This document shows, in pieces, positions 32,560-34,451 of a stretch of DNA of 64,000 nucleotides. This stretch comes from Lachnospiraceae bacterium 10-1 (GTDB lineage: Bacteria > Bacillota > Clostridia > Lachnospirales > Lachnospiraceae): assembly GCA_000403495.2 (NCBI GenBank), contig KE159821.1:124001-188000 (forward strand). The letters run 5' to 3'. Position 1 is the first letter of the stretch. Every line of letters begins with the position of its first letter. A program made the translations under genes and the position numbers. Under the pieces are notes generated by a model that did no database searches, was not told the DNA's origin, and worked only from the letters and a program-made list of their open reading frames with translations.

Positions 32560-32628
32560 CTTTCCACCTCCTAGTATAATAATGATGTAGCCAAGAATGA
32601 CTACTTGTTAATCAGTTTCTATACACCA

Positions 32629-32900
32629 GATAACAAAAGAAGGTGTTCTTCCTTCATCAGATGTTATCCCTAAATAATGATCATGTCTGACGGTTCCTGA
32701 TAGACACCAGATAATACATAAGGTATCATCCTTTAGGATAGGGCAAAGAATGTCCACCTCCTTGGGAAGCTGGTTCTTACCAGCCTATACCTATCGTGAA
32801 GTCAATTAGTCCATTCGACAGGATTTTATGTTTTAGCTGGTTGGGAGCCGGAAGGCTATACCTGTATAACACGCTAGGTTGTGTACCTGTCAGACTGGAA
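32629..32900 (+). ncRNA. Predicted bridge RNA of the IS110 element
   Basis: Ends are approximate. Nested hairpin 32629-32668, stem GCTGG/CCAGC (32770-32785), GCC-GGAA-GGC and TATA-CCTG-TATA. Candidate target guides: TCCACCTCCT at 32753-32762 equals the left target plus core at 32563-32572, and GTGAAG at 32796-32801 can pair with CTTCGC right of the core (one wobble). Candidate donor guides: TTAGCTGG at 32833-32840 equals the right element end (34360-34367), and GCTAG at 32873-32877 can pair with CTAGT at the left end (one wobble). Confidence 0.6.
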
Positions 32901-32931
32901 ATGGAACCCTATCAGAAAGGAGCCACCACCC

Positions 32932-34248
32932 ATGGCAAACAATGTTATTTTTAATGTTGATGAACTATTCATTTCTGTTGGTATTGATGTCGGCGCTGAC
33001 TTCTCCTGGATGTCTATTGCACTCCCGAACCAGCAGTTTGTGGGAAAGCCTTATAAAATCCTGCATAACAGCATGGATTCCCTTACAGCCGCTGTTTCTA
33101 AAATAAAAGAAGCAGAAGAGCTGTATTCCATGAAAAGCCGCATTTTTCTGGAATCCACGGGAATTTATCATTACCCACTCTTCTGCTATCTTCGTGATAA
33201 AGGTTTTAACTGCTCCGTTATCAATCCTATCATCACTAAGAATAGCACAAATATTAACATACGAAAAGTACATAATGACCGTTTTGATTCAAAAAAGGCT
33301 GCATTAGTTGGCCTGAAGCCTGATTTAAAGGTTTCCCTCATGCCATCCGACCTTGCCCTTAACTGCCGGAATCTCTGTCGTGAATACTACGATTTGATGG
33401 ATAACCGCAGCGCTTACGTGAACAAACTCCAAGGTGAACTGCGCATGGCATTTCCCCAATACCTTGGCATTTTTTCCAAGGTTACAGTCAATACATCGCT
33501 TACACTGTTGGAAACTTATACATCTCCATCTGCCTTTATTGAAGCAGACAGAAAGGAGATTATTGAAACCATCCGATCAACAGCGCGTTTTGGACTTACC
33601 TATGCCCAGAACAAGTATGACGCCATCATCCGGGCTGCAAAGGAGGCAAAGGAGTTTGGCTACATCATTGACAGCAATGTCAAACGTATCCGTCTTTATG
33701 TCAATTTCATACGCAAATATGATGAAGAGATCAGCTGTCTTCTGAATGCCATACATGAACTCGTTGATGCCAACCAGGATACTGATTTTGTGAAGCAAAT
33801 ACATTTGGTCGAGACGTATAAAGGTGCAGGTTTCCTGTCTGCCGTATCCCTCATGGGAGAGATTGGTGATTTCTCGGCTTTTTCAAAACCAAAACAGCTC
33901 TTTGCTTACTTTGGTCTTGATCCGGCAGTAAAACAATCCGGCAAATTTGAAGGAACAAAAATCCAAATGTCCAAAAGAGGTTCAGCTATAGCCAGACGTG
34001 TGATCCATACGCTGGCTTTGCAAAGCATCAGCGTTTCCTGTACAGGTGAAGCCAAAAATCCAGTTCTCCGGGATTACTACCTGAGAAAATGTGAATCAAA
34101 ACCGAAGCTTGTGGCAATGGGGGCTGTTTCACACAAGGTATGCAACATAATATTTGCAATGCTGCGAGATAACAAGCCTTTTGAAATCATCCCTCCACAG
34201 GAGCATATCAAACAATACAATGCTGCTAAATGCAACATAGCCGCATAA
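32932..34248 (+). CDS. IS110-family transposase (RuvC-like DEDD recombinase)
   Basis: 438 residues. N-terminal RuvC-like DEDD domain (about 12-175; Asp19 in GIDVGAD, Glu74 in IFLESTG) and a C-terminal Tnp domain (about 290-400; TYKGAGFLSAVSLMGEIGD, then KIQMSKRGSAIARR holding the catalytic serine). Enzymes of this family use a bridge RNA to join donor and target. The ATG at 32932 follows AAAGGAG; the in-frame extension to 32881 lies in the structured region. No frameshift is seen, so it could be active. Confidence 0.93.
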   Translation: MANNVIFNVDELFISVGIDVGADFSWMSIALPNQQFVGKPYKILHNSMDSLTAAVSKIKEAEELYSMKSRIFLESTGIYHYPLFCYLRDKGFNCSVINPIITKNSTNINIRKVHNDRFDSKKAALVGLKPDLKVSLMPSDLALNCRNLCREYYDLMDNRSAYVNKLQGELRMAFPQYLGIFSKVTVNTSLTLLETYTSPSAFIEADRKEIIETIRSTARFGLTYAQNKYDAIIRAAKEAKEFGYIIDSNVKRIRLYVNFIRKYDEEISCLLNAIHELVDANQDTDFVKQIHLVETYKGAGFLSAVSLMGEIGDFSAFSKPKQLFAYFGLDPAVKQSGKFEGTKIQMSKRGSAIARRVIHTLALQSISVSCTGEAKNPVLRDYYLRKCESKPKLVAMGAVSHKVCNIIFAMLRDNKPFEIIPPQEHIKQYNAAKCNIAA

Positions 34249-34451
34249 AATAATGCAGATTTAACAAATCCGTATCTTTTGAAAAATGATATTTTCACCA
34301 AGGGGTAAGTGCGCCCTTTTTTAAGAAGTAAAAATTTTTTATTTACCTCTTGACATTTATTAGCTGGACTTCGCCAGACAGCATAAAGGAATATGTGGAA
34401 AATAGCCATATAAGGAACCGACAAAGATAATGTGTACAGACTGGTGAAAAA

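Follow-up and report, generated by a model that had tools for sequence, protein, structure and literature searches.

We analysed a 64,000-nucleotide window of the genome of Lachnospiraceae bacterium 10-1 (contig KE159821.1, positions 124,001 to 188,000) and found, within a prophage, an IS110-family insertion sequence whose bridge RNA is, judging by its sequence, very probably programmed for the Shine-Dalgarno (SD) region of genes. The element occupies 1796 bp between two copies of a CT core. Its target, on the minus strand, consists of AGGAGG, 7 nucleotides and the ATG of a gene for a 99-residue phage protein, located between the terL and portal genes. The left target guide has an anti-SD sequence of the CCTCC type, similar to the 3′ end of 16S rRNA. 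The machinery is that of an ordinary IS110 element; its programme is natural, legible and unusually general.

Guide segments match the insertion site

A first-pass annotation had proposed that this IS110 element encodes a bridge RNA with guide segments matching its own insertion site, an observation that we confirm. The non-coding DNA of the element comprises 359 nucleotides upstream of the recombinase gene, which carry the guides, and 120 nucleotides from the stop codon to the right core. In the upstream region a left target guide, a hairpin, a right target guide and the donor guides follow one another in the order described for bridge RNAs (Table 1). The left target guide is identical over 10 bases to the left flank plus core; by arithmetic, about 3e-4 exact matches to a fixed 10-mer would be expected within a leader of this length. 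The right target guide can pair with CTTCGC, and an 8-base donor guide matches the right end, both as had been claimed, and the matched target is indeed the ribosome site of a phage gene. For the donor guide to the left end, the pairing stood but the length did not: five pairs had been claimed, and four nucleotides are supported. Within these, the left-end base next to the core and its guide base covary without exception over 78 rows, which include duplicates: A/T in 63, T/A in 15.

Uninterrupted phages define the insertion point

By searching with the 99-residue protein, we found nine viral contigs, one of which (L167) is the same phage carrying the element, with the other eight uninterrupted at the site. 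A query made of the joined flanks crosses the junction at 88-94% identity in eight of the nine contigs, aligning as a single piece of at least 680 bases in seven and as a 364-base piece in the eighth, L172. On the gene strand the empty site reads GGCGAAGGAGGTGGAAGGATG in seven contigs and differs by one base in L172; some of the eight are near-identical, so they amount to fewer than eight independent witnesses. The two junctions have only CT in common, and the empty sites are joined at the CT core predicted by comparison with relatives, with no target duplication beyond it.

On the gene strand, the core is the AG that opens AGGAGG, placing the insertion at the upstream (5′) edge of the SD. After insertion, the SD, spacing and start codon remain together at the left junction, with the element splitting them from the upstream leader, and genes at such a spared SD may stay expressed. 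At the right junction, a same-direction frame (terL, in the window) ends within 300 nucleotides in 30 of the 64 loci with enough right flank, a count for which no background was computed; the target therefore often lies within an operon.

Most relatives lie at Shine-Dalgarno sequences

The genome has one copy of the element and, in two copies, a second IS110 that is 25% identical to it. Because of this single copy, the check for copies at unrelated targets was run on relatives. We fetched 88 of them and left out seven by hand as truncated or partial (L055, L065, L066, L087, L092, L097 and L100), the window and 81 loci making up 82 rows. After dropping four loci without a left end (L022, L036, L046 and L047), seven duplicates and three short flanks, 68 distinct left flanks remained, among which some sites are still related (L016 and L017; L058 and L069); a further set of loci and L102-L107 are not counted in the 68. 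A flank counted as strict SD if its opposite strand read GGAGG or AGGAG at the junction, and as having a start if a start codon lay 6-23 nucleotides in, with at least 30 open codons.

A strict SD occurs in 53 of the 68 flanks, a looser SD in 61, a start with an open frame in 60 (leaving eight with no start under this definition) and a strict SD together with a start in 48. Among 20,000 CT positions from the surrounding DNA, the background was 2.6% for a strict SD, 26% for a start with frame and 0.96% for both. The junction also keeps a fixed register, with an ATG at offset 12-14 in 44 of the 68 flanks versus 6.7% of random CT positions. Two of the loci without a left end, L046 and L047, have an otherwise complete recombinase gene, upstream of which the usual left end is not found and the sequence changes part-way to unrelated DNA.

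Guides agree with their own targets

Each guide was cut to 10 nucleotides, a fixed length that puts a few longer ones one base out of register. The left guide agrees with its flank in 88, 88, 85 and 93% of cases at positions 5-8 and in 37-68% at positions 1-4, and the right guide pairs in 94, 88 and 69% at positions 3-5 and in 28-46% beyond. We then swapped guides among elements within two clades in 10,000 runs, two strata that control host composition only in part, and no shuffle reached the observed agreement in any of three comparisons: 397 matches versus 332 ± 7 over the eight outer positions of the left guide, 156 versus 104.5 ± 6.4 over its four outermost positions, which lie outside the common SD, and 218 versus 158 ± 7 over positions 3-7 of the right guide. 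The target sites are mostly separate places, and the agreement is therefore not produced by common descent of the elements alone. Within one genome, a single guide serves many different targets. Programming for SD-like sequences, suggested in the first-pass annotation, is thus supported both by the joint occurrence of SD and start among the relatives and by a guide-target agreement above all shuffles.

Three other explanations were weighed against these data. Insertion might be wide, with only those copies in untranslated leaders persisting, such that SDs become over-represented without recognition; leaders before genes would be tolerant places, and a start codon with an open frame does lie near most flanks. 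We nevertheless consider such survivorship very unlikely given the fixed register of junction and SD and the agreement of guides with their own targets outside the common SD. It is even less probable that insertion is drawn by the recombinase, or by a ribosome site that is exposed and transcribed, and that guide similarity stems from shared base composition. Host composition differs between clades and affects guides and targets alike, yet the within-clade shuffles fall far below the observed values for both target guides, and the bases that the right guide reads, upstream of the SD, share no motif and still pair well with it at positions 3-5. Least credible is that the guide copy is a by-product, either a picked-up copy of the flank or an anti-SD mainly regulating recombinase translation through the recombinase's own ribosome site, which in 79 of 82 rows reads GAAAGGAG with C or T as the next base (the other three have GAAAGGGGC or yielded no such site) and could pair with the CTCCTT contained in many guides; one guide has many different targets in one genome, the predicted leader fold does not pair the guide with the recombinase SD, and agreement with the targets would be left unexplained. 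Because the recombinase site is without AGGAGG, the element may target itself less.

Predicted fold of the bridge RNA

To the 28 relatives analysed, RNAalifold assigned a target-binding loop comprising an outer stem, an inner stem and an apical hairpin. Within the internal loop, the left guide takes up the 5′ side and the right guide the 3′ side, as described for IS621. Across the target loop and a small hairpin of the donor part, 98.7% of cells pair versus 94.1% in shuffles, and changes on both sides occur in 53 cells versus 15.7 and in six pairs versus 3.1. The apical hairpin, between the target guides, has double changes in all five pairs, a compensatory pattern, and the predicted target-binding loop is well supported. 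In a covariance-model search, the check proposed in the first-pass annotation, our own loop model R1, built from 28 sequences that include the window and are close relatives only, matched seven of 38 other sources at E <0.01.

Several observations weigh against the reading of a bridge RNA programmed for SDs. In the RNA, further pair types show no excess (19 versus 18.2 in shuffles); the outer stem of the target loop hardly varies and has no double changes, giving little covariation evidence; the donor-loop fold is not settled by RNAalifold on the 28 relatives, though the donor guide bases show covariation with the ends; folds of single sequences have only moderate stability, with a z of about -2; and Rfam has no matching family, with nothing above threshold in the window. 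Among the targets, the flanks of L068, L079 and L081 are unrelated, that of L060 matches poorly, and a near-SD is all that L021, L048 and L056 have. Sites matching the guide are also not enriched in number in the element's own genome, the left guide, core and two right-flank bases occurring in four other places versus eight for the reversed pattern. By eye, three of these four places are AGGAGGTGG with a close ATG, and the fourth heads a frame resembling the response-regulator start of the first, with no evident ATG.

A permissive Rfam match within the element was to an irrelevant long non-coding RNA, below its cut-off, and was set aside. In the left end, 5′ of the target-binding loop (window 32617-32665), is a conserved stretch resembling a hairpin, which the most distant relatives, L096 and L099, do not have. 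L079 lacks SD-like flanks, and its element exceeds the others in length by about 650 bases. Guide pairs like that of L056 come close in sequence to the 3′ end of 16S rRNA genes (for L056, 9 of 10 left and 6 right bases match); the relatives' flanks include no insertion at that place, and a search of the draft genome did not find the sequence.

A proposed route of insertion

At the joined ends of the element, -35 and -10 boxes are separated by a 17-nucleotide spacer in 74 of 74 rows, with exact TTGACA and TATAAT in 68, which fits a promoter that exists only in the circular form. From the sequence alone, we infer that circularisation would create this promoter and express the bridge RNA and then the recombinase. 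The anti-SD left guide would read the SD and the short right guide about three bases upstream of it. The circle would then be joined by the recombinase to chromosomal or phage DNA through the CT core, which marks the 5′ edge of the SD, with the element facing against the gene; the empty sites give the position, and IS621 serves as the model for the mechanism. The gene would retain its AGGAGG, spacing and start codon, with the element falling between these and the upstream leader. Since SDs are found throughout a genome, one guide would have many addresses, mostly outside coding sequence, and each lineage would vary the outer guide bases. An outward promoter in the left end driving the target gene was also considered and was dropped, with only weak candidates seen by eye and in a scan.

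IS110 bridge RNAs are known to be programmable, and which addresses nature programmes, and why, is little described in the literature consulted. Here the natural programme appears directly legible, the guide spelling one of the most general signals in bacterial genes. This would predict the landing places of such elements in SD-rich genomes, and dozens of naturally varied guide-target pairs become available for learning guide tolerance. The SD-sparing geometry offers the testable idea of a mobile element limiting damage to its host or phage.

Reach in other Bacillota

Flanks of other IS110 elements were collected by searching the class with a protein and the phylum with a domain. They come mostly from multi-copy elements, a choice that favours elements with many targets, and groups were sorted by eye before opposite-strand SDs were counted, with no background computed. 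Counted in this way, 50 copies in 15 genomes have the SD on the strand opposite the element, with a strict SD in 43 and a start codon and open frame in 44. In five further groups (19 copies; L189-L192 and L197-L211), the right end terminates in GGGAG(G) and the element runs in the same direction as the gene, with a left flank that is often AAGGAG; a start codon lies within 16 nucleotides in 12 of these 19 copies, several of which have only 9-34 nucleotides of flank, and group G800a has none in four. The flanks of group G800b and of five single elements (L160, L162 and L164-L166) could not be sorted into either arrangement.

Beyond the seven matches at E <0.01 (L160; L161 and L008, which are one and the same place; L155, L156, L162 and L163; at 39-55% recombinase identity), the loop model gave ten at 0.01-1 and no match in 21 of the 38 sources. 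It matched none of the groups from the phylum search, where SD targeting is read from the flanks alone. Tentatively, and with not quite as much to be said for it as against it, SD targeting may be the prevailing, perhaps ancestral, programme of multi-copy Bacillota IS110s, in two mirror geometries (antisense at the 5′ edge of the SD, or sense with a GGGAG(G) right end) that both leave a usable SD by the start codon. If so, the SD would serve as an address at once universal, renewable and gentle, and read-through transcripts might still allow translation of the genes downstream.

Relation to known systems

IS900 inserts between the start codon and the SD. It reportedly targets translation initiation signals, according to the title of a 1997 report by Doran. 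Our element resembles IS900 in having a target with SD and start codon on the opposite strand, as found in the window and in the 48 relatives' flanks with a strict SD and start. They differ in that the window's element leaves the SD with the gene and has minus-strand open reading frames (ORFs) of at most 115 residues in the ORF listing, none spanning the element, whereas a complementary-strand hed ORF is described as spanning IS900. The motif of IS900, an IS110-family element of Mycobacterium avium subsp. paratuberculosis, is given as CATGNNNNNNTCTCCTT, the opposite strand bearing the start codon and the SD (PMC8141618). In IS900 the IS110 family thus already has a precedent for SD targeting in itself, and our data suggest an RNA-level explanation for that older report. 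In the open-licence literature, covered by title and start of abstract (subscription papers and preprints lying outside this scope), we found neither the explanation by an SD-complementary guide, nor the spread in Bacillota, nor the SD-sparing insertion point.

The bridge RNA mechanism was established for IS621 (PMC11208160, PMC11208158), which targets repetitive extragenic palindromic (REP) elements in E. coli (PMC11208160). As far as those papers' consulted portions describe it, IS621 resembles the window's element in recombinase type, a left-end bridge RNA upstream of the recombinase, two guide pairs, a CT core and a promoter rebuilt at the joined ends; the difference lies in the address, REP elements for IS621 and, by an anti-SD guide, gene starts here. 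The word 'Shine' is absent from PMC11208160. The two recombinases have low similarity (phmmer E 4e-10 over the C-terminal half), and we equated the IS621 catalytic residues D11, E60, D102, D105 and S241 (PMC11208158) with D19, E74, D116, D119 and S347 by motif, without direct alignment. These five residues of the window's recombinase are invariant in seven of seven aligned recombinases, and E74, D116, D119 and S347 align with identical residues of ISCro4.

The IS1111 group, with its seekRNA and subterminal inverted repeats, likewise has a DEDD recombinase and RNA-guided target choice, and differs in having its non-coding region downstream of the transposase gene, whereas the guides in the window lie upstream (PMC11187229). 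In the consulted portion of that paper, many different targets are described, and 'ribosome binding' and 'start codon' each occur once, on other matters (PMC11187229).

Features of the element and its prophage

The recombinase matches the Pfam domains DEDD_Tnp_IS110 and Transposase_20 above cut-off (E 1.5e-20 and 7.1e-19), the NCBIfam model for IS110 RNA-guided transposases (171 bits against a cut-off of 140) and, among solved structures, IS621 and ISCro4. The coordinates of the element, its guides and its target are collected in Table 1.

Table 1. Position of the IS110-family element, its guide segments and its target in the window
Feature	Position	Strand	Basis or remark
IS110-family element	32573..34368	+	CT cores at 32571-32572 and 34369-34370; ends from relatives and empty sites
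Left target + CT core (TCCACCTCCT)	32563..32572	+	minus strand gives AGGAGG of the target gene
CT core + right target, CTTCGC	34369..34374	+	empty sites
Predicted target-binding loop of bridge RNA	32734..32820	+	model R1 and pair counts
Left target guide TCCACCTCCT	32753..32762	+	identical to left flank plus core
Right target guide GTGAAG	32796..32801	+	pairs with core + right flank CTTCGC, one G-U
Left donor guide TTAGCTGG	32833..32840	+	equals right end 34360-34367
Right donor guide CTAG	32874..32877	+	pairs with core + first two left-end bases (32571-32574); covarying third base, 78/78 rows
Recombinase ribosome site GAAAGGAGC	32915..32923	+	AGGAG then C, not AGGAGG
IS110 recombinase, 438 residues	32932..34248	+	Pfam, NCBIfam, solved IS621 and ISCro4
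TTGACA, putative -35 half of promoter at joined ends	34350..34355	+	17-nucleotide spacer to TATAAT
TATAAT, putative -10 half of promoter, formed only at joined ends	32575..32580	+	pairs with TTGACA 34350-34355
Target gene, 99-residue phage protein	32260..32559	-	AGGAGG and ATG stay together at left junction

On the minus strand, the neighbours of the element are terL, the 99-residue gene, the portal gene, a ClpP-like head maturation protease gene and the capsid gene. The sole Pfam match of the 99-residue product, DUF6809, is sub-threshold. In a phage collection, nothing matched the element closely at the DNA level, and tblastn with the 99-residue product gave no match; terL matched 145 records there, one region of which was inspected.

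Three minor observations concern the surrounding sequences. On the plus strand, 3′ of the recombinase gene, a terminator-like stretch (AAGGGG..GCGCCCTTTTTT; window 34298-34323) was seen by eye and was not listed by the scan. The second IS110 of this genome (L002 and L003, on contigs C18 and C23) adjoins a start-codon-like CAT and has the SD-like flanks CATTGCTGTTTCCTCC and CATAGCTGTTTCC. Lastly, in L172 the end of terL (about 2165-2930) is broken, according to the alignment pieces, by some 730 extra bases relative to the other phages.
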